A stretch of 64,000 bases of DNA from Nodularia sp. LEGE 06071 (GTDB lineage: Bacteria > Cyanobacteriota > Cyanobacteriia > Cyanobacteriales > Nostocaceae), in contig NZ_JADEWH010000014.1 of the NCBI RefSeq assembly GCF_015207755.1, forward strand, positions 62,001 to 126,000, in the 5' to 3' direction. The notes beneath the pieces were generated by a model, which was not told the DNA's origin, ran no database searches, and was given only the letters and a program-made list of their open reading frames with translations. The translations under genes were made by a program, and so were the position numbers. The first letter of the stretch is position 1; each line of letters begins with the position of its first letter. Shown here piece after piece: positions 3,113 to 25,639 of this stretch.

Positions 3113-4318
3113 CTACTGGATGACAAAGTTAGACGGGTCTTGATCTCGTCGATGCTGAGTGGGAATAGGGTCTGGCTGCCCATTACCTGCAAGGGCTGCG
3201 GTTTTCTCCAGGGATTCCCTCAATCGCTTGGCTGCGTAGATGGACATATCTCGTGGTACATTAATGCGATCGCGCAAATATCGTAGAGCAACATCAGATC
3301 CCGATGGAGGTACACAGTCTTCACCAGTCATCATCTGAGTTAAAGCACAACGTAGCGCTTGATCAAACAAATTATCATCTAAGGGGTTGACTCGGATAAT
3401 ATTGATGCGGTGTTTGATAGTTCGTTGAAGAGCTTCCATGCGGGAGTTTTCCGGTTCTGGATAAGAAACATCTGGTAGTCCAAACCAGGGACCGTTATCC
3501 ACCCGCGCTTTATTGAGAAGCATCTGGGGTTCGCCGTTTTCCCAACAGCCCCCCATCTGGGGCGGTAAATCATGTGCGTGGGTGTGAAAATCGCTCTGAG
3601 TACCGCAGTAAGTAGGTCGGCTTTCCATTGCCGCAAACCATGCGCTTAAGCGAGGGTTTTCCTCTCGCAGGGAGTAGCCTTTGTAGTAGTAAAGGCTCGC
3701 ATTCATCCGTTCCAGATATGGCGTAAAAATCACATCAACAATACCGAAGCTATCCAGAAAGTAAGGGCTTGAGGTGCTACCCAAAGCCTCCTCGACCTTA
3801 GCCACCACTGTGATAAATTGTTCTCGGTGGCGTTGTTCTTGTTGAGAGGAAGCAGCTTTAGAACACAGCCACATACACCAAGCTCTAAATAAAAGTCGTT
3901 CTAATTGACGTAGAGTCAGCACGCTGCGGTCTTCCATCCCTTGGTTCAATGGAGCAAAAACTTTTTCCAAAGCGATCAAAATATCATCGCTTTCCTTAAT
4001 AATCCGTCCATCTAGCTCAATCGCCGGGAGCATTCCTGATGGAACCTTACGTTTGTACCAACTTTCTTTTTCCCCATAGCAGAACATTGTCACTTTTTCA
4101 ATACGGTAGGGGATCTGTTTTTCCTCTAGCCATAACCAAACTTTTTGACAGTAAGGACACCAGGCGTGGTTATCACGGTACAGCGTTACCCGCACATCGG
4201 ATTCGGGCTGACCAAACAAGCGTAACCTGGCTCTAGCGTTGGTGATACCATTAACAGTATCTATTTGATAGTCCGTGAGGGTTTCTAGTTCTTGCCAGCT
4301 TAAGGGTGCGGTAGTCAT
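3113..4318 (-). CDS. Glutathione S-transferase-like protein with glutaredoxin-type CPYC motif
   Basis: The protein is about 401 residues from the ATG at 4318; a TTG seven codons upstream (4339) is less likely. An N-terminal thioredoxin-fold domain begins near residue 42 (VRVTLYRDN) and carries WCPYC at 53-57, the Cys-x-x-Cys of glutaredoxins and CPYC-type transferases. A helical GST C-terminal part follows ([20 protein letters not shown]). A further C-terminal region of about 150 residues exceeds the classic GST length of 200-250. It probably reduces or conjugates glutathione-linked substrates in the cytosol; the substrate is unknown. It lies 57 bp after the DUF937-like gene on the same strand. 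Confidence 0.75.
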
Positions 4319-4375
4319 AGGGGGAGTTGAGTAGGGCAATACTTAGGACTTTTCTTGACTCTACAATTTTCCCGA

Positions 4376-4906
4376 CTACTTGCCAACATATTTACTAAAT
4401 AATTGAATAGCGTCGGCAACATTGACATCTCCATCCCCATTGGCATCCAAGAAAGAATTCAAGACAGAATTTCCACTAGTTTGAGGATTTTGGGTATTAG
4501 CACCAGATTGCAATAAATTTAATACTAGAGGCACAATCACAGGTAACAATTGCACAATTGTACCAGCATCTAATCCTGTATGTTGGGAAGCTATCTGTGC
4601 TACCTGCTGTTGGATTTGCGGAGGAAACAGGGAACTGACGGCTTGAGGGTTAGAAGAAGTCCCAGCATATTGATTAACCAATGCTTGGGTTGCTTCATTA
4701 CCTTCTGAGGCTTGTTTCTGTTGTAAAGCAGAACGTACATGGTTACCAACTACACCAATAACCGATTGTATCGTTGAAGGATTTGTACCAGTGGTATTAC
4801 TCAGCTGATTAACAGTGTTAATAATACTGCCGAGTTGACCTAAACTAGCTTGTTGATTGGGATTGCTCACAGCACCGATAATTTGATCAAACAGACCCAT
4901 AATCAT
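4376..4906 (-). CDS. DUF937-like protein with C-terminal Ca-binding-type loop
   Basis: 176 residues, rich in Gln, Asn and Ser. The N-terminus (MGLFDQIIGAVSNP) and the repeated helical QLGSIINTVNQL pattern resemble DUF937 proteins, whose function is unknown. The tail from residue 154 contains DANGDGDVNVADAIQLF, an EF-hand/dockerin-type D-x-N-x-D-x-D loop that could bind Ca2+. A hydrophobic stretch (TIVQLLPVIVPLVLNLL) precedes it. AGGAG stands 4 nt before the first ATG (4906) and 10 nt before a second in-frame ATG (4900), so MGLFDQ may be the true start. No function is proposed. Confidence 0.75.
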   Translation of the reverse strand: MIMGLFDQIIGAVSNPNQQASLGQLGSIINTVNQLSNTTGTNPSTIQSVIGVVGNHVRSALQQKQASEGNEATQALVNQYAGTSSNPQAVSSLFPPQIQQQVAQIASQHTGLDAGTIVQLLPVIVPLVLNLLQSGANTQNPQTSGNSVLNSFLDANGDGDVNVADAIQLFSKYVGK

Positions 4907-5012
4907 CTTTCTCCTAATGTTCTGATTCGTTGACTGTAGAACAGCTGTTGCTATTATGAAACAATTAACTCCGCAAAACCAGACACTTAAGGATGAAAAA
5001 TTTGGTAAACAA

Positions 5013-6617
5013 TTATCTCTTTAAAAATCGCTGACGCATCCGCACCACAAAGGTATTAACCTCTGGTATTTTCAGGAATGACACAATAATTGCAAACACC
5101 AAAATCCCCACTAAGCCTGATACACACAACTGCAACAGTTGAATGATTAACCCCTGCGTACCTAACAACTGCTGCAAACCGACCAAAGTTCCAAAACTGG
5201 CTAACCCAGCGACCACACTACCCCCAGTCAAGCCCAAAATTGGCAAACTCCACTCACGCCAAGGTAAACCATTGAGTTTGCGGTCAAGTAACCATAACAG
5301 CATTAATATCGAACTGCAATTTACGCCTACTGTTGCTAACACAATACCAGTCGCGCCAAAGGGTTTCACCAAAATCGCATCTAGGAAAATGTTAAGGAAA
5401 ATGTTAAAAATACTAATGCGAAAGGGTGTCTGTCCATCGCCCAGGGCGTAAAACACCCGTACTAAAACATCACGCCCCAAATAAACAAACATCCCAATTC
5501 CGTAAGCAATCAGCAGGGATGAAACCAACTGTGTAGCCTCTTGTTTAAAAGCACCTCGTTCATATACTATCTGCACAATTGGCACAGATAACACGATCAT
5601 CAGCGCCCCTAAAGGTAGCATAGTCACGGCGGTGAGCAATATTCCTTGGCGAATGCGTAATTTCAGGTCTGGCCAATGTTCTGGTTCAGCCAATTTTGCA
5701 AACATTGGTAACAGAGGTAGCAGAATAATATTAGAAATTATCCCTAAAGGAGTCTGCACAAGGAGATTGGCATAATTAAAGCCAGCCGCCGCACCGGGGA
5801 TCGGACTAGCAAAATATAGGTCAGTGGCGACATTAATGGGCATCATTCCAGAGGAAATTGTCGCCGGTGTCATGATTCTAATGACTTCTTGCACCCCAGG
5901 GGATTTAAAATCAAACCGCAGGCGTAATGTACCCAGTCCTAAGCGCCACTGCACAATTAGCTGTGCTAACCACTGGAGAATTGCCCCGGCTAGGGTTCCC
6001 CAAGCTAAGACCATACCACCGATGAGGGCGTATTTTGGCTGAATAATATCTTTACCTAGTTGCCCTGTTAAGATGGCAATCCCAGCAATTACAGTAATAC
6101 TGGATAATAAGGGACTAATTGAAAGTAACCAATATTGATTGGCGGCGTTGAGTGTACCGAAACCAATGCCAATTAAACCTGCAAATAAAGCCATTGGGGC
6201 CATGATGCGGATTTGTTGAATAGCGATCGCTCTTGTAGTCGGTTCTAAGCCATAACCGACAATATCAATAATCGTATCAGCAAAGAAAATCTGAGCAAAC
6301 GTCACAAGCAACAGTAATCCACCCACCAGAGTTGTGACTGTTTCTACCAGTGGCGCGCCTTCTTCCCGTTTGCGCTTGGCTAAAACACTGACCACTGCAC
6401 TGTGTAATGGTCCATTCACACCACCTAGTAGAATTAATAAAAAACCCGGAATAATGTAAGCGTAACTATAAGCAGTAGCCGCAGCACCAACACCAAAAGC
6501 AGCTGCGATCGCTTGTTGTCGCACTAAACCAAATACTTTACTAATTAATGTAGCCGCCGCTACAATGCCAGCAATTCCCGCAAAAGAACGAGAAGGTTTC
6601 GGATCTTCTTGTGTCAC
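5013..6617 (-). CDS. murJ: MurJ/MviN-family lipid II flippase
   Basis: 534 residues of strongly hydrophobic sequence with about 14 predicted membrane helices, the normal size for MurJ. The N-terminal segment SFAGIAGIVAAATLISKVFGLVRQ is the conserved first helix of the MviN/MurJ family (MOP superfamily), and the polar basic loops between helices fit the fold. MurJ moves lipid-linked peptidoglycan precursor across the plasma membrane. The start ATG at 6617 is directly followed by the conserved N-terminus. The gene is followed by the DUF937-like gene with a gap of about 106 bp. A heptamer repeat tract lies immediately upstream (6625-6660), so the promoter must overlap or lie beyond it. Confidence 0.93.
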   Translation of the reverse strand: MTQEDPKPSRSFAGIAGIVAAATLISKVFGLVRQQAIAAAFGVGAAATAYSYAYIIPGFLLILLGGVNGPLHSAVVSVLAKRKREEGAPLVETVTTLVGGLLLLVTFAQIFFADTIIDIVGYGLEPTTRAIAIQQIRIMAPMALFAGLIGIGFGTLNAANQYWLLSISPLLSSITVIAGIAILTGQLGKDIIQPKYALIGGMVLAWGTLAGAILQWLAQLIVQWRLGLGTLRLRFDFKSPGVQEVIRIMTPATISSGMMPINVATDLYFASPIPGAAAGFNYANLLVQTPLGIISNIILLPLLPMFAKLAEPEHWPDLKLRIRQGILLTAVTMLPLGALMIVLSVPIVQIVYERGAFKQEATQLVSSLLIAYGIGMFVYLGRDVLVRVFYALGDGQTPFRISIFNIFLNIFLDAILVKPFGATGIVLATVGVNCSSILMLLWLLDRKLNGLPWREWSLPILGLTGGSVVAGLASFGTLVGLQQLLGTQGLIIQLLQLCVSGLVGILVFAIIVSFLKIPEVNTFVVRMRQRFLKR

Positions 6618-16962: not shown

Positions 16963-17229
16963 TATTTAGCCCTAGCGATGGGAAATCGCAGGAGAATAAA
17001 TTAAATCCGTATCGGCGGATAATATACACATCGCACTTTGGCTTTTTTGACAAGGTGCGTTTACTTTTTTTAATAATAAAAGCAGGGTAGGTTTGAGAGG
17101 ATGTTTAAAATTAATCTATAGAACCCATTTGACATCTTTTAGAAGATATGATGCGATCGCACTGGGGATAACCCCTATTATTCCGTTTCTTTTTGATCAC
17201 CGCCAACAAAATCAGCGCACCGGAAGTAA

Positions 17230-17733
17230 TTATTGCCAAATACTAGGTGCGATCGCCGCTATGATCAACAGAAAGAAAATCTCTAGGATGTAGCTAATGA
17301 AAACACTACGATTGAGCAGACCATCCCACAGGTAGCCTTGACGTTTAGAAATTTGCTGACGCTTGTGGGTTTTCGACCAACTGCCATAGATACCAGGGCT
17401 TTTCAACTTGTATGTATTGGTGAGAATATACTCAATTTCGGCAACACGGGGATAGAAACCGCGCTGAAAGTGTTTCCATTGACTTTCGAGAATCCAGAAA
17501 AATAAGGGAATAGAGCAACCTATTAAGGCGATCGCACTGGCGATGGGTTTTTGCTGTAACATCAATGCTAAGACTCCCCCAGTCCCCGTAATTCCCAGGG
17601 CTTTAATCACCCAAATCTGCTTGTTATAGTCTTCAATCGTATTTTGCAGAAAAAAGTATTCCTGTTTGAGTAAGTCTAATTCAAAATCATCGAGAGATTT
17701 AGGCTGGGGTTCAGTTGGTAATAGGTTAGACAT
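17230..17733 (-). CDS. Unidentified membrane protein divergent to the NACHT gene
   Basis: About 167 residues from the ATG at 17733 (another ATG four codons upstream at 17745). Two adjacent hydrophobic helices lie near residues 46-85 (VIKALGITGTGGVLALML and IASAIALIGCSIPLFFWIL) and a third at the C-terminus (ISYILEIFFLLIIAAIAP). A conserved-looking cytoplasmic stretch between them contains QWKHFQRGFYPRVAEIEYIL and WSKTHKRQQISKRQGYLW. The layout resembles small SLATT-like membrane proteins, but I cannot assign the family. Its start is 265 bp from the NACHT gene, which reads the other way, so a functional link is possible but unproven. Confidence 0.7.
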   Translation of the reverse strand: MSNLLPTEPQPKSLDDFELDLLKQEYFFLQNTIEDYNKQIWVIKALGITGTGGVLALMLQQKPIASAIALIGCSIPLFFWILESQWKHFQRGFYPRVAEIEYILTNTYKLKSPGIYGSWSKTHKRQQISKRQGYLWDGLLNRSVFISYILEIFFLLIIAAIAPSIWQ

Positions 17734-17998
17734 GGGTGATAGCAAACTTCACTGAGATGAAATTAGCACAATTCGTAGTTCGTGAACAAAAAAGAAAAAA
17801 TATCCCGGATTTTTCAAAGAAGTCGGGGATCTGAGCCTCTCTGAAGTGCTGTTACTTATTTAAGAGAATCTCAACACAGATAATAAGTTACAATTTCACT
17901 CAGTAAGTTAAACCTTGTCAAAAAAACACCGTTACCAGGGGTTAGGCAAGCAACATTTAACCTTTCCCTAACGGCAACATCTCACTATTCCACACACC

Positions 17999-20900
17999 AT
18001 GAGCATCTGGAATGACTATCTCCAATCACTCCGCAATGATTATGCCCAATGGTGGAATGCTTACACGCTGACGGATGTAGTGGGACAGCAGCGAGTTGAG
18101 CAGAAACAGTCGCCCCTAATGCTAAATTTTATGGTGGAGAGGGTATTGCCCACCAAAGAGGAACGGAGCGAAACCCAGGAGAAAACCGAGCGTTTAGATG
18201 TATTGGCCGGGTTGCGGAAATATGCTCAAGAACACGTCTTATTGGTAGGGCGGCCAGGTTCGGGGAAATCAACGGCGTTGGTGCGGTTGTTGTTGGAAGA
18301 AGCGGAGAAACCCCTCCCCCAACCCCTCCCCGAAACGGAGAGGGGAGTTAATTCTCCCCCTTCCCTCGCAGGGAAGGGGGTCGGGGGGTTAGGTAAAATT
18401 CCCGTGCTAGTAGAGTTGCGCTATTACCAAACCTCAGTGCTGGATTTAATTCGGGATTTCTTAAAGCGCCATCGCCTGTTGTTGGACACTGCAACCATAG
18501 AAAAACTGTTATTTAACGGGCAATTCCTCCTGTTGGTAGATGGTATCAACGAATTACCCTCAGAGAAAGCGCGACAAGATTTATATAAATTCCGGCAAGA
18601 CTACCAAAAAACCAAGCCGATGATATTCACCACGCGGGATTTAGGCGTGGGGGGCGATTTGGGCATTACCAAGAAGCTGGAAATGCAACCCCTGACACCA
18701 GAACAGATGCAGCAGTTTGTCCGCGCCTATTTGCCAGAACAGGGTGAGCAGATGTTGCAGAACTTAGGCGACAGGTTGCGTGAGTTTGGAGAAACGCCGT
18801 TGCTGCTGTGGATGCTGTGTTCATTGTTTCAAGCCACAGGAGACATCCCGCCTAACTTGGGTTTGGTGTTTCGTCAGTTTACCCAGCAATATGTATTTAG
18901 TGAGCAAAATGTCAATAAAAACCAAAGATTTAAAGGAGATGTACCAGATCCTCATGAATCACGAAAATTCTGGCAGGATTTGCTTCAAGAGTTAGCGTTT
19001 GTAATGGCTACTGAAACCGAAAAAGAAATTCAAGTCGCTATTAAAAAAGAAAAAGCAGAGAAAATTATAGAAAAATTCTTGCAGAGAAAAGGTTCTCCTG
19101 ATGCTTTCAGAACAGCACGTTTCTGGTTAGATGATTTACTCAAACATCACTTAATTCAAATTGCTGCAAATGACCAAATTGAATTTCACCACCAACTAAT
19201 TCAGGAATATTACACCGCCGAATGTTTGCTCAAGCAATTATCAAAACTCGATGATGGCTGCCTCCAGCGAGAGTATTTAAATTATTTAAAATGGACTGAA
19301 CCCCTGAAATTGATGCTGGAATTGCTTGATGATGGGGCGCAGGCGGTGCAAGTGGTGAACTTAGCCTTAGAGATAGATTTGCAGTTAGGGGCAAAGTTAG
19401 CAGGTGCAGTTAAGTCAGAATTGCAGCAGCAGACAGTTCATTTAATCGCTAGGTTAGAAATTCCTCAGCTATTCAAAACCCAGCTTTTAGGTTTAACAAA
19501 ATCTAAGCGAGCAATTTCTCATCTCAATCTATTACTAGAAGATGAAGACTCCGATGTGCGCTGGATGACAGCAGATGCCCTGGGAAAAATCAAACCAGAA
19601 GCGGCGATTCCTGGGCTGATTCAATTACTAGAAGATAAAGACTCCTATGTGCGTGGGAGGGCGGCAGATGCCCTGGGGAAAATCAAATCAGAAGCGGCGA
19701 TTCCTGGGCTGATTCAATTACTAGAAGATGAAGACTCCTATGTGCGTAGGAGGGCGGCAGAAGCTCTAGCAGAAATCAAATCAGAAGCGGCGATTCCTGC
19801 GCTAATTCAATTACTACAAGATGAAGACTCCTATGTGCGTGGGAGGGCGGCAGAAGTCCTGGGTGAAATGAAATCAGAGGCGGCGATTCCTGAGCTAATT
19901 CAATTATTAGAAGATCAAGAGTATCATGTAATTTCCACAGTTGTCAAAGCCTTGATTGGCATGAAATCAGAGACAGTAGTTTCTGGATTAATTAGTCTTC
20001 TCAAACATGAAAAACCTCATGTCCGTTCTAATGCTGTAAAAGCCCTGGTAGACATTAAATCAGAAGCGGCGATTCCTGGGCTAATTCAATTACTACAAGA
20101 TGAAGACTCCCATGTGCGTATGAGTGCGGCATATGCCCTGGGTGAAATGAAATCAGAAGTGGCGATTCCTGGGCTAATTCAATTACTACAAGATGAAGAC
20201 TATCGTGTAATTTCCACAGTTGTCAAAGCCTTGATTGGCATGAAATCAGAGACAGTAATTTCTGGATTAATTAATCTTCTCAAACATGAAAAACCTCATG
20301 TCCGTTCTAATGCTGTAAAAGCCCTGGTAGACATTAAATCAGAAGCGACAATTCCTGAGCTAATTCAATTATTAGAAGACCAAGAGTATCATGTAATTTA
20401 CACAGTTATAAAAGCCTTGATTGGCATGAAATCAGAGACAGTAGTCTCTGGATTAATTAGTCTTCTCAAACATGAAAAACCTCATGCCCGTTCTAATGCT
20501 GTAAAAGCTCTGGGTGAAATGAAATCAGAAGCAGCGATTCCTGAGCTAATTAAATTATTAAAAGATGAAGACTCCTCTGTGCGTAGGAGTGCGGCAGATG
20601 CCCTGGGAGAAATAAAATCAGAAGCGGCGATTCCTGGGCTAATTCAATTACTAGAAGATGAAGACTCCTCTGTGCGTAGGAGTGCGGTATATGCTCTAGG
20701 TAATCTGAAATCAGAGGCAGCAATTCCTGGCTTAATTAAATTACTAGAACATGAAGATCATGAAGTGAATTTAAATGCTGCAAATACCCTATCCGCAATT
20801 AGATCAGAGTCTGTAACTTCTGAAATTTTTAAACTTCTCCAACCTAGAATTGATGATGTGCGTACTTGGTCGCAAAGGGCTGGTTTACGTTCTTTGGTAG

Positions 20901-22840
20901 CAGATATTTTAGGAAAAATAGAATCTGAAGTTGGTATTATTACGCTGATGAATTTTCTTAAAGATCAAGCCTATTATGTGCGTAGAAGTGCAGCAGATGC
21001 ACTGGGTGAAATTCAATATAATGAGGCAATTTCCGGATTAATACAACTTCTTAAAGATGAATACTGTGATGTGCGTTATAGTGCTGCAAATGCTCTGATA
21101 AAAATAAACTTAGAGGAAGTAATTCCTTGGTTTATTGAACTTCTCCAAGATCAATGGTGTTTTGTCCGTAATCTTGTGGCAAATGCCCTGATTAAAGCTA
21201 AATCAGAACAGGCGATCCCTGGACTAATTCAAATTATCCAGAATGGAGAATCTGATTTGCGTTATGATGCAGCAAAAGCTCTGAGTGAAATTAAATCGGA
21301 TACAGCAATTACTAATCTGATTAATCTTCTTAAAGATGAAAAATCTCATGTGCGTTCTACTGCGGCAGAAGTCCTGGGTGAAATTAAATCAAATGCAGCA
21401 ATTCCTGGACTAATCGAAATATTTGATGTTTGTTATGAGGCGGCAGATGCTTTGTGTGAAATCAAATCAGATGCAGCAGTTCCTGGATTAATTAATCTTC
21501 TCAAACATAAAGAAATTCATGTACGTTCTACTGCGGCAAAAGTTCTGGGTGAAATTAAATCAGATGCAGCAATTCCTGGACTAATTGAACTTATTCAAAA
21601 TGCAGAATCTGATGTGTTTCATGAGGGAGTAAAAGCACTTGGTAAAATCCAACCAGAACTAGCGTTATCCCAACTTATAAAAATTATAAAAAATGAAGGA
21701 TTTTTTATCATAGATAGTAAATATATACTTACTTCTATAATTACAGAACTTGAAGAAATACAAAAAGACTGTCGATATTATAGCCCTATAAATCAAGCAA
21801 TCTCTGAAGCAACACCTCAACGAGTTAAAACTTCCCTAATGTATATTCTCCATCTTTCAGACCTGCACTTTGGCACACCTGACCAAGCCAAACTCTGGTC
21901 TAACCAACTAGCAACTGACTTGCAACAAGAACTCGATATTCCTCACCTTGATGCCCTCATTTTCTCCGGCGACATCGCCAACAAATCAACCCCAGCAGAA
22001 TACGAAGCAGCCCAACAATTTTTTGACGAACTCCGCCAAGATTTTGCCCTCCAACCTGAGCAAATTATCATCGTTCCCGGTAATCATGACCTCAACTGGT
22101 CACTAGCAAAACAAGCTTACCAATTAATTGACCGTGACGACTATGAGGGAGAATTGAAAGAAGGTGAATATATAGAAGAAAGTGCCAGCGTCATTCGTGT
22201 GCGAGACGAGGAAAAATATCAACAACGCTTTGAATACTTCAGCAACTTCTACCAAACCATCAAAAACCAACCCTATCCTCTAGACTATGACCAGCAATAC
22301 ACCCTAGACCATTTCCCCAACCAAAACCTGCTCATTCTAGGGTTAAACTCCGCTTGGCAATTGGATCATCATTACAAATTCCGTGCCAGCATTAATATTA
22401 ATACATTCACCAACGCCCTCACAAAAATTCGCCGCCAGCAAGAATATAAAGACTGCATCAAAATAGCAGTATGGCATCATCCCCTAGATAGCGCCTGGGA
22501 TGACCGCATCAAAGACCAAAGCTTTATGGAACAGTTAGCCGTCGCAGATGGTTTCCGCTTCTTCCTCCACGGACACGTCCACCAAGCACAACAAGGCGTT
22601 TATAAATACGACGAAAAACGAAAACTACATCGCATCTGCGCGGGAACATTCGGCGCACCTACCCACGAACTCACAACTGCCGAAGGTTGGCAATATAACC
22701 TACTGAAGTTGGAAAATAACACCCTCACCGTCCGCAGCCGCAAACGCAAGACAGAAAACGGCGCATGGGAAGCGGATAATGGTTGGCGACAAGGTAAGGG
22801 TAAAGGTTCGTTAGATTCTTATACAATTACATGGGAATAG
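17999..22840 (+). CDS. NACHT NTPase - HEAT repeats - metallophosphoesterase fusion
   Basis: 1613 residues in three parts. (1) A STAND-type NACHT module: Walker A GRPGSGKST at 84-92, Walker B LLLVDGINELP with D181, a TTRD sensor-like motif and the typical FHHQLIQEYYTAE end near 395. (2) From about 503 to 1245, PBS-lyase/HEAT-type repeats of 31 residues, each with a core like EAAIPGLIQLLEDEDSYV. (3) A C-terminal calcineurin-like phosphoesterase with every metal ligand: DLHFG (D1288, H1290), GDIAN (D1325), GNHD (N1362, H1363), WHHP (H1494) and GHVH (H1526, H1528). NACHT-repeat proteins are ATP-driven switches, often in antiphage immunity or programmed death. Here the enzyme could be the effector, cutting a nucleotide or nucleic acid. 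A palindromic repeat is inserted in frame at residues 104-132. The start ATG at 17999 lacks a strong Shine-Dalgarno. Confidence 0.88.
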   Translation: MSIWNDYLQSLRNDYAQWWNAYTLTDVVGQQRVEQKQSPLMLNFMVERVLPTKEERSETQEKTERLDVLAGLRKYAQEHVLLVGRPGSGKSTALVRLLLEEAEKPLPQPLPETERGVNSPPSLAGKGVGGLGKIPVLVELRYYQTSVLDLIRDFLKRHRLLLDTATIEKLLFNGQFLLLVDGINELPSEKARQDLYKFRQDYQKTKPMIFTTRDLGVGGDLGITKKLEMQPLTPEQMQQFVRAYLPEQGEQMLQNLGDRLREFGETPLLLWMLCSLFQATGDIPPNLGLVFRQFTQQYVFSEQNVNKNQRFKGDVPDPHESRKFWQDLLQELAFVMATETEKEIQVAIKKEKAEKIIEKFLQRKGSPDAFRTARFWLDDLLKHHLIQIAANDQIEFHHQLIQEYYTAECLLKQLSKLDDGCLQREYLNYLKWTEPLKLMLELLDDGAQAVQVVNLALEIDLQLGAKLAGAVKSELQQQTVHLIARLEIPQLFKTQLLGLTKSKRAISHLNLLLEDEDSDVRWMTADALGKIKPEAAIPGLIQLLEDKDSYVRGRAADALGKIKSEAAIPGLIQLLEDEDSYVRRRAAEALAEIKSEAAIPALIQLLQDEDSYVRGRAAEVLGEMKSEAAIPELIQLLEDQEYHVISTVVKALIGMKSETVVSGLISLLKHEKPHVRSNAVKALVDIKSEAAIPGLIQLLQDEDSHVRMSAAYALGEMKSEVAIPGLIQLLQDEDYRVISTVVKALIGMKSETVISGLINLLKHEKPHVRSNAVKALVDIKSEATIPELIQLLEDQEYHVIYTVIKALIGMKSETVVSGLISLLKHEKPHARSNAVKALGEMKSEAAIPELIKLLKDEDSSVRRSAADALGEIKSEAAIPGLIQLLEDEDSSVRRSAVYALGNLKSEAAIPGLIKLLEHEDHEVNLNAANTLSAIRSESVTSEIFKLLQPRIDDVRTWSQRAGLRSLVADILGKIESEVGIITLMNFLKDQAYYVRRSAADALGEIQYNEAISGLIQLLKDEYCDVRYSAANALIKINLEEVIPWFIELLQDQWCFVRNLVANALIKAKSEQAIPGLIQIIQNGESDLRYDAAKALSEIKSDTAITNLINLLKDEKSHVRSTAAEVLGEIKSNAAIPGLIEIFDVCYEAADALCEIKSDAAVPGLINLLKHKEIHVRSTAAKVLGEIKSDAAIPGLIELIQNAESDVFHEGVKALGKIQPELALSQLIKIIKNEGFFIIDSKYILTSIITELEEIQKDCRYYSPINQAISEATPQRVKTSLMYILHLSDLHFGTPDQAKLWSNQLATDLQQELDIPHLDALIFSGDIANKSTPAEYEAAQQFFDELRQDFALQPEQIIIVPGNHDLNWSLAKQAYQLIDRDDYEGELKEGEYIEESASVIRVRDEEKYQQRFEYFSNFYQTIKNQPYPLDYDQQYTLDHFPNQNLLILGLNSAWQLDHHYKFRASININTFTNALTKIRRQQEYKDCIKIAVWHHPLDSAWDDRIKDQSFMEQLAVADGFRFFLHGHVHQAQQGVYKYDEKRKLHRICAGTFGAPTHELTTAEGWQYNLLKLENNTLTVRSRKRKTENGAWEADNGWRQGKGKGSLDSYTITWE
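18308..18394 (+). repeat. Palindromic repeat inserted in frame in the NACHT domain
   Basis: 87 bp, equal to 29 codons, built from nested inverted repeats: CCCCTCCC...GAGAGGGG, then CCCCCTTCCC...GGGAAGGGGG, with outer arms AACCCCTCCCC and GGGGGGTTAGGT. It encodes the low-complexity segment KPLPQPLPETERGV...SLAGKGVGGLG between Walker A and the next beta strand (KIPVLVEL). Such segments are common as dispersed, usually intergenic, cyanobacterial repeats. Here the length keeps the frame open. Confidence 0.85.
19540..20760 (+). repeat. 93-bp DNA repeats encoding HEAT units
   Basis: The HEAT-coding DNA repeats with a period of 93 bp and near-identical copies. The block around TGTAATTTCCACAGTTGTC starts at 19927 and 20206, with a close copy at 20392; the distances are exactly 279 and 186 bp, three and two periods. 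Copies later in the gene (after about 20760) are much more diverged. Confidence 0.9.
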
Positions 22841-22911
22841 AAAATTTGGTTAACCGTGAAGAAATTATTCATTTTGCTTTAGATTTGATATTACCAGGAG
22901 AATCAAGTTAA
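22831..22911 (+). CDS. Possible 26-residue ORF bridging the NACHT gene and tlyA
   Basis: ATG at 22831 overlaps the last codons of the NACHT gene in another frame. The ORF encodes a 26-residue acidic peptide beginning MGIENLVNREEI and ends with TAA at 22909-22911, immediately before the TTG start of tlyA. It could couple translation or be the remnant of a lost gene; chance is equally possible. No Shine-Dalgarno is seen. Confidence 0.25.
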   Translation: MGIENLVNREEIIHFALDLILPGESS

Positions 22912-24271: not shown

Positions 24272-25639
24272 TTATTGATACTTTGCGCCTAATTCCTGTT
24301 GCAAGCGATACAGAATTGTTTTGTGGTCAACCTGAGCTAAAATCTCTTGAATGACTGTACTAGCTCCCAATTGTCCCCAAGTACAACCTTTTTCTAAATA
24401 TACTTGGGCGGCTTTCCCGACTGTGTATGCACCATAACCTGCAATCCCAGATTGCGCGATCGCAGTCCCAGCGTAAGCAGTGATATTCAGCGGATTTTCA
24501 CCACTGGCGATCGCCGCCGTACTTTTACCTAAACCCAGCATCACACTACTACCTATTTCTCCTAACAACAAACCACCAGAACTAAAGAAAATCGTCTTTA
24601 AAATTTTGCTGGCTTCATAGCTAGTCATCGGTAAACCATATAACCGGGCTAGAGAACGAATCAAAGCTAAATCGGCGATCGTACCACAGATCACATCTAA
24701 AACAGGTACAGGATTTAATCCTACTGCCAAGGCTTTGTATTTAGTAAATTTCCAAATAATCTCTTCAGCTTCTTTGTCGCGGAAGTCCATAGTCTTTTGC
24801 GCGATCGCCTCTTCCGCATCCCGTGCTTGAATCAGTGCATTTAAAGCTAGAAGCGATCGCCCTTCCCGATTCAGAATATTTAAAATTGTTTGCTGAAGTT
24901 CCTCAACCTGGGGCTGTGGTGTCTCCCATTCATAGCTAACGCGACCATCAGGCCACTCCACCCGGACTTCCATCGGTGCTGGTTCCGCCGCCACCATGAC
25001 AATTTCATCAGGTAATAAAGGCTGGGCTTGGGGATGTCCAGCACCTAGTTGTTGCAAATTATCATAAATCGCCGAACGGTCTGTTTCTGGGTATAAATCG
25101 ATTTTGTTAAATACTAAAATCAGTGGCTTTTGGGCTTGTCGTAATTCCAGCAAGGCTCGATACTCAGTCCGAGTGATATCACCTGAAACCACAAACAAAA
25201 TTAAATCAGCCTGACGCGTCACTTCTCGCGCCATTTTTGCCCGTGTCTCCCCCTCAATTTCATCCAATCCAGGGGTATCAATTAACTCTACTAATACTTT
25301 ACCTCCTGGTTGCCAACGCACAGAACGCGGCCATTGAGTGACACCGTTCAGGGGGCCAGTTTGGAGAATTTTCTCTCCCAGCAAAGCATTTAATACTGCT
25401 GATTTTCCCCGACTCACCAAACCAAAAGCCGCAATTCTAATTACATTGGAGTCTAGTTTGTTGAGTGTCGAGTTCAACGCGTCTAATTCCGGTTTCAGCA
25501 AGCCGACCAATTCTGAGTTTGAGGAAAACTTTCCTGACTTGCGGAGATATCCATACCAAGACAGCGCTTGTCTGAGACTAGCACGGGCGCGGTTTAAGTG
25601 AGTTTCTTGGAGATTACGCACGAAGTTAGATTGATTCAA
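24272..25639 (-). CDS. Dynamin/Era-like GTPase with DUF697 domain
   Basis: 455 residues. The GTPase domain has G1 GLVSRGKS at 73-80, G3 DTPGLDE near 118 and G4 NKIDLYP near 183. The C-terminal half fits DUF697: the helical lead-in RDKEAEEIIWKFTKYKALAVGLNPVPVLDVICG, then a hydrophobic hairpin (FFSSGGLLLGEIGSSVMLGLG) and a Gly/Ala-rich AYAGTAIAQSGIAGYGAYTVGKAAQVYLEKG. This combination is widespread in cyanobacteria and probably acts at a membrane; the cellular role is not established. ATG 25639 is the only suitable start. Confidence 0.85.
   Translation of the reverse strand: MNQSNFVRNLQETHLNRARASLRQALSWYGYLRKSGKFSSNSELVGLLKPELDALNSTLNKLDSNVIRIAAFGLVSRGKSAVLNALLGEKILQTGPLNGVTQWPRSVRWQPGGKVLVELIDTPGLDEIEGETRAKMAREVTRQADLILFVVSGDITRTEYRALLELRQAQKPLILVFNKIDLYPETDRSAIYDNLQQLGAGHPQAQPLLPDEIVMVAAEPAPMEVRVEWPDGRVSYEWETPQPQVEELQQTILNILNREGRSLLALNALIQARDAEEAIAQKTMDFRDKEAEEIIWKFTKYKALAVGLNPVPVLDVICGTIADLALIRSLARLYGLPMTSYEASKILKTIFFSSGGLLLGEIGSSVMLGLGKSTAAIASGENPLNITAYAGTAIAQSGIAGYGAYTVGKAAQVYLEKGCTWGQLGASTVIQEILAQVDHKTILYRLQQELGAKYQ

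Follow-up and report, generated by a model that had tools for sequence, protein, structure and literature searches.

A single long gene in the cyanobacterium Nodularia sp. LEGE 06071 joins a NACHT domain, a series of HEAT repeats and, at its C-terminus, a calcineurin-like metallophosphoesterase (MPE). The question raised by this locus is whether such a protein serves as an immune receptor and, if so, what its terminal enzyme would do. We studied the gene within a window of 64,000 nucleotides (the whole stretch of DNA analyzed) and compared it with related genomes and with known systems. Our analyses favor, with a probability of about 0.66, a two-gene conflict cassette, most likely antiphage, whose main protein would be an NLR-like receptor of reversed layout, sensing through variable HEAT repeats, assembling through NACHT and firing through the C-terminal MPE.

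The gene, its domains and its active sites

The features of the locus are collected in Table 1. The reading frame is intact, and a Pfam scan of the 1613-aa protein matched all three parts of the chain given in the preliminary description, namely NACHT (6.6e-6), about 24 HEAT repeats (HEAT_2, 4.3e-179) and MPE (Metallophos, 3e-12, residues 1281-1529). This domain and motif content is far beyond chance. The NACHT score of 26.5 bits is marginally below the Pfam cut-off of 26.7, and the cut-off was passed by all three scanned relatives of the same architecture (48.1, 32.8 and 31.4 bits). Both Walker motifs were found where they had been described (84-92 and D181), and the assignment to NLR-like STAND proteins stands. 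We take FHHQLIQE (residues 396-403) to be the NACHT winged-helix signature. The 83 residues preceding Walker A matched no Pfam family (E up to 0.001). The HEAT span measures 796 aa, and part of it shows a 93-bp period at the DNA level (19531-20757). The hinge that follows was read by eye, as was an IQxxCxxY-like motif after the HEAT part in many relatives.

Table 1. Features of the NACHT-HEAT-MPE locus (window positions)
Feature	Position	Strand	Basis or remark
SL, membrane-protein gene, cassette partner	17230..17745	-	TTG ORF; ATG at 17733 gives 167 aa
NACHT-HEAT-MPE gene	17999..22840	+	ATG start, 1613 aa, no internal stop
Walker A, GRPGSGKS(T), residues 84-92 including K90	18248..18274	+	motif reading
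Dispersed repeat element, ~90 bp, in frame within NACHT domain (~residues 103-132), just past Walker A	18305..18394	+	genome matches
Walker B, LLLVDGINE, residues 177-185 including D181	18527..18553	+	motif reading
HEAT solenoid, ~residues 505-1265, ~24 repeats of 31 aa	19511..21793	+	Pfam, DNA period, span
Hinge IQKDCRYY, residues 1254-1261	21758..21781	+	read by eye
C-terminal calcineurin-like MPE, residues 1281-1613, presumed effector	21839..22837	+	Pfam, NCBIfam, ligands
Scar, remnant of a DUF29 gene (its final 29 codons)	22822..22908	+	79% identical to the L127 ORF (144 aa) over residues 116-144

The MPE belongs to the calcineurin-like superfamily, with a Metallophos score of 47.8 bits against a Pfam cut-off of 21.5. 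Its motifs are D1288-L-H1290, G-D1325-I-A-N, G-N1362-H1363-D, H1493-H-P and G-H1526-V-H1528. All eight metal-ligand positions are present, as had been reported for the window protein, and they are likewise intact in 20 of 22 aligned MPEs (L041, with a stop in its translation, was left out of the alignment). The two MPEs that have lost some ligands, L129 and L140, both lack a NACHT match.

The repeat element inside the NACHT domain has 32 matches in its own genome, counting itself, and many of these are partial. In L122, L123 and L032 it sits at the same NACHT position, with 93-98% identity in two pieces; it is present in Nostocaceae relatives too. The element may lower the NACHT score of the window protein, although a Trichormus copy that carries it (L046) is nonetheless above the cut-off (31.4 bits). 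This element, the divergent gene SL, the insertion scar and the exchange of C-terminal enzymes described below were all beyond the preliminary description.

Arrival of the cassette and its membrane-protein gene

Three of the five genomes of the genus contain the MPE, as do 24 of the 291 from the order (E up to 1e-20); incomplete copies and MPEs borne by other proteins are included in these counts. The preliminary description had proposed looking for a patchy distribution and named universal conservation in cyanobacteria as the outcome against a defence role; the distribution is patchy. A scan of named genomes gave 16 MPE loci, all cyanobacterial judging by their titles. In the two congeners without the MPE (G002 and G003), the flanks align to the window from 16001 to ~17070-17094 and resume at ~22835, so the absent block comprises the MPE gene and its divergent neighbor SL. 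A whole-genome search placed SL in the same three genomes of the genus as the MPE.

The downstream edge of the block carries a scar. The 144-aa L127 ORF is a DUF29 protein (Pfam 4.9e-8) that is complete in cassette-free G003, while G002 retains residues 19-144. In the window, and likewise in the two congeners with the cassette, a 29-codon remnant of this gene separates the cassette from tlyA. We interpret this as a DUF29 gene having given way to the two-gene cassette, rather than as loss of the cassette from the congeners. An apparent frameshift in the congener copy L025 (G001) was rejected, the split coinciding with a run of N within the gene.

NCBIfam and PADLOC scans of the neighbors gave glnA, an apcB-type gene, tlyA, bicA and, with a score under the model cut-off, an slr1306-like protein. 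These are housekeeping genes, and the idea that the locus might lie in a defence island was dropped. Near the cassette, the slr1306-like protein (24272-25639, minus strand) has weak PADLOC matches to LeoA/LeoBC (1e-13), and congeners of both kinds, cassette-bearing and cassette-free, have an ORF that begins in the same way. The dN/dS values of 0.45 for NACHT and 0.32-0.37 for the MPE, against 0.09 for the neighboring tlyA, indicate faster protein change in both domains. Three copies (L138, L141 and L142, from two genomes of a Moorena-type genus) have an in-frame stop or frameshift inside the HEAT part, which fits genes under changing selection. On the conjugative Nostoc sp. C057 plasmid p057_H, an MPE of 45% identity is encoded in a 4.3-kb gene amid NACHT- and HEAT-annotated genes, and the plasmid cluster (L218, 93-10461) is annotated NACHT, HEAT, metallophosphoesterase, NACHT. 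An E. coli plasmid MPE (25% identity) adjoins a hypothetical protein and a MazG gene with no annotated NACHT, and a phage collection gave one MPE match of 22% identity.

SL encodes a protein of 167-171 aa. Its hydrophobic stretches cover approximately residues 39-86, which leaves space for two helices, and 138-167. The mean column identity of 19 aligned copies is 70%, and dN/dS is 0.15-0.23. At E up to 1e-20, SL was found in 19 of the 291 genomes, a count that leaves out the weaker matches in G006, G086, G178, G190, G271 and G287 (E from 1e-3 to 1e-20). In 14 of the 19, SL has a NACHT ORF of the family, in some cases cut or broken, no more than 4.0 kb away. The two genes are divergent in ten of these and convergent across one gene in the other four, all from one Moorena-type genus; in G156 SL is a fragment. 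The five SL genomes without a nearby NACHT are G169, G209 and G251 (none within the fetched stretch), G221 (where SL is 265 bp from the end of the contig) and G241 (where SL is broken). Thirteen of the 19 SL genomes are among the 24 MPE genomes, compared to 1.6 by chance if kinship is ignored. The cassette is not obligate, since no SL lies near many MPE members (L035, L036, L044, L135-L139 and L141-L143). SL is thus an associated but optional partner of the NACHT-HEAT-MPE protein, perhaps with a role in membrane anchoring or gating. A fragment of SL is also present on a Nostoc plasmid, with no NACHT annotated in the stretch examined, where annotation is incomplete.

The window SL had no Pfam match at E up to 10, a range in which HMMER discards most weak matches. 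Neither it nor four homologues matched Pfam SLATT models at E up to 10, and its PADLOC match was to PDC-M50A (5e-4). As neither Pfam nor the PDB offered a relative (best E 0.56 in the latter), we rejected the identification of SL as a SLATT protein.

A NACHT-HEAT core with exchanged ends

At E up to 1e-40, 71 of the 291 genomes contain relatives of the NACHT part (residues 1-480), more than contain the MPE. Forty further NACHT regions were taken, representing most but not all matches down to about E 1e-87, with at most five candidates scored per genome. Seventy-three NACHT-bearing ORFs were sorted by C-terminal part into MPE (24), MPE* (6), caspase (7), TIR (4), PNP (1), nuclease-like (1), unassigned helical tail (10), none or other (14) and cut (6). 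MPE* denotes L025, L111, L112, L138, L141 and L142, which we judged to be masked, split or broken; L111 was so labelled by orthology alone, with no MPE visible there. Pfam scans of representatives recovered caspase in four of four (best 6e-25), TIR_2 in two of two (1.5e-14) and PNP in one of one (5e-27), and the remaining rows were labelled by BLAST to these representatives. On the 73-row NACHT tree, the 43 enzyme-labelled rows require six enzyme changes when MPE* is treated as MPE. The nine labels together require 28 changes, versus 44 in shuffles, indicating that enzyme type is mostly inherited. Of the inner branches, 34/70 are well supported, and the caspase form may have arisen only once.

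The clearest enzyme exchange is found in G015. The tail of its NACHT-HEAT protein (L174, ~4013-5100) matches PADLOC PDC-S54 at 6e-89, while Pfam gives nothing beyond HEAT; from a D...E-x-K motif, we read the tail as nuclease-like. The PDC-S54 domain stands where the larger part of an MPE used to be, a frame just downstream encodes the end of an MPE from the GHIH region onward, and the protein is the starred sister of the MPE protein L121 on the tree (96/83).

Domains are found at the other end as well. A trypsin-like domain lies N-terminal to NACHT in L194, L196 and L204 (2e-17, 4e-19 and 3e-14). L194 and L196 are without a recognized C-terminal enzyme and L204 stops within the HEAT part; with few independent cases, mutual exclusivity of the two enzyme ends is only suggested. 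L189 has a weak EAD8 match ahead of NACHT (0.0017, below the cut-off). The HEAT span ranges from ~145 to 900 aa across the 24 MPE members, and the same MPE also occurs behind other cores, EAD1-VMAP-M1 in L039 and AAA-TPR in L040. Around the former (L039, 8198-12581, Moorena), neighboring ORFs start similarly, as if they were EAD1 partners.

Taken together, this comparison shows a NACHT-HEAT core that acts as a chassis with its presumed effector exchanged at the C-terminus. We are inclined, by a small margin over even odds, to go further and regard one NACHT-HEAT subfamily as an ambidextrous immune chassis, with a trypsin-like domain in front or an MPE, caspase, TIR, PNP or nuclease-like domain behind, swapped just past the conserved hinge and often accompanied by a dedicated membrane protein. 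The helical tail that recurs on this core (L180, L186, L188, L197, L202 and others) could be a further effector type; Pfam gave no effector match in the three tails tested (L180, L197 and L202). L120 (7661-17833) contains a 3390-aa ORF running NACHT-HEAT-MPE-PNP-nSTAND-TPR in frame into RelA/SpoT, TGS and ACT, which could be either a genuine giant protein or the product of fusion to a housekeeping gene.

Known systems, rival explanations and proposed function

The NCBIfam models nearest to the MPE are those of antiphage proteins, DS9_1 (3.4e-27) and DS8 (NF053861, 2.6e-25), followed by TIGR00619 SbcD (8.9e-9). All scores are under the family cut-offs, which indicates kinship with DS-8 and DS-9 and not membership. 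According to the available portion of the report, DS-8, identified in E. coli with DefensePredictor, is a single protein in which a metallophosphatase and NACHT occur together, and mutating either one abolishes defence (PMC13092281). The window protein likewise combines a homologous MPE with NACHT; however, its MPE aligns to positions 1-285 of the 994-position DS8 model, placing the enzyme at the N-terminus in DS-8 and here at the C-terminus after ~24 HEAT repeats, and the whole protein scores 82.8 bits against a DS8 cut-off of 790. DS-9A provides the best MPE match of all, but the same portion of that report pairs the DS-9 MPE protein with a HAD phosphatase gene, whereas SL and tlyA are adjacent here. 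We file the window protein as a variant of the NACHT plus MPE (DS-8) kind, distinct from DS-8 itself.

The order of the domains departs from the layout described for its class. In the excerpts consulted, one paper states for all STAND NTPases that the N-terminus is the effector and the C-terminus the sensor (PMC12169576), and another words this layout as 'usually' (PMC10907252). The window protein shares with bNACHT and Avs proteins an STAND NTPase with intact Walker motifs together with effector and repeat or sensor parts. In contrast to their N-terminal effector, central NACHT and C-terminal sensor (PMC12169576), it runs NACHT, HEAT, enzyme; neither an N-terminal effector nor a C-terminal sensor is seen, the repeats being central. 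The placing of its presumed effector at the unusual end was thus correctly described. A C-terminal enzyme was not unknown before, given that a NACHT-HEAT-metacaspase protein with the same domain order was reported from Trichodesmium erythraeum in 2012 (PMC3501461); that report, so far as its excerpt goes, concerns one caspase protein and describes no MPE form or exchangeable C-terminus. Calcineurin, TIR and PNPase were treated as exchangeable conflict-system effectors by Kaur et al. in 2020 (PMC7159879), and caspase was added in a 2021 companion (PMC8195603). As excerpted, these papers place them N-terminally in TRADD-N and some STAND proteins, and C-terminally on EAD or vWA proteins. The resemblance extends to the Moorena protein L039, which bears the same MPE, but the window protein has no vWA, MoxR, EAD or VMAP part (Pfam, E up to 0.001). 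VMAP ternary components were not found among the neighbors covered by the NCBIfam and PADLOC scans, a weak test. In the open-licence literature searched, we found no NACHT-HEAT protein described as ending in an MPE or as having an exchangeable C-terminus, and no experiment on a cyanobacterial member.

Based on these observations, we predict that the NACHT-HEAT-MPE protein probably defends cyanobacteria against phages. The variable HEAT solenoid, presumed by analogy to be the sensor, would recognize an infection cue, and the N-terminal NACHT domain, like others of the STAND class, would assemble with ATP. Assembly would cluster and switch on the C-terminal MPEs, which would hydrolyze the phosphodiester bonds of either a nucleotide or a nucleic acid and thereby stop phage growth or the cell. 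In this scheme the NACHT-HEAT core is the chassis, with the effector swapped behind it. A conflict function is suggested by the nearness of the MPE to enzymes of antiphage DS-9 and DS-8, the latter requiring both MPE and NACHT for defence, by the patchy distribution (3/5 and 24/291), and by joint acquisition with SL that left a scar. It is also suggested by the exchange of C-terminal enzymes, including PDC-S54 in the place of the MPE, by the N-terminal trypsin-like domains of relatives, by the same MPE on other cores (L039, L040), by the variable HEAT span and by NACHT and MPE dN/dS values above that of tlyA. Counting against it are the lack of a defence island at the locus, the optional nature of SL and the mostly inherited enzyme type on the NACHT tree. 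The defence interpretation of the preliminary description is in part supported, by patchiness and by kinship to validated antiphage enzymes, and not by its neighborhood.

The strongest competitor to part of this reading concerns the substrate. The MPE might be an SbcD/Mre11-type nuclease that cuts phage or host DNA after NACHT assembly, not a nucleotide phosphodiesterase, in keeping with the TIGR00619 match, the SbcD structure 4lty (3.7e-5) in a PDB profile search and the label Endonuclease on PADLOC model PDLC00736. However, among solved structures Lmo2642 is the nearest in sequence (2xmo, 2.1e-8), phosphohydrolase 2dxl (4e-5) is nearly equal to SbcD, all these matches span only about the first 100 residues and are not decisive, and the DS-8 authors, in the portion of their report available, prefer a cyclic-nucleotide substrate (PMC13092281). 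TAL-effector entries in the same search were judged to be repeat artefacts. We consider a nucleotide-type substrate slightly favored over DNA or RNA, and the nuclease alternative rather unlikely.

The other alternatives would shift the killing role or remove it. SL could itself be the killing part, as a membrane pore or gate, with the MPE merely making or removing a nucleotide signal that controls it. SL does stand beside NACHT-HEAT genes in several genera with differing flanking genes, and GAP1-N1 systems, as excerpted from Kaur et al. (PMC7159879), pair 2TM SLATT genes with nucleotide-related effectors including calcineurin. This appears improbable, though, as many NACHT-HEAT-MPE genes have no SL close by, the C-terminus may also bear caspase, TIR or nuclease-like domains, and SL has no Pfam SLATT match. 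It is more doubtful still, to the point of being highly unlikely, that the protein is a non-immune regulatory phosphatase or phycobilisome-related factor. Its HEAT repeats match CpcE and NblB models and an allophycocyanin beta-type gene is close by, but the scores are under the model cut-offs (290 vs 330 bits and 177 vs 300, respectively), unrelated genes flank the relatives, and patchiness and effector exchange are unlike housekeeping.

The conflict cassette remains the preferred reading, and it extends the newly validated MPE class of DS-8 and DS-9 to cyanobacteria. If the ambidextrous chassis is true, it breaks with the published rule of an N-terminal effector and a C-terminal sensor in STAND immune proteins. 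An enzyme-last family with enzyme-first relatives would offer a test of whether NLR activation depends on mere proximity through oligomerisation or on a fixed geometry, and cyanobacteria permit comparison of one core with MPE, caspase, TIR and PNP ends.
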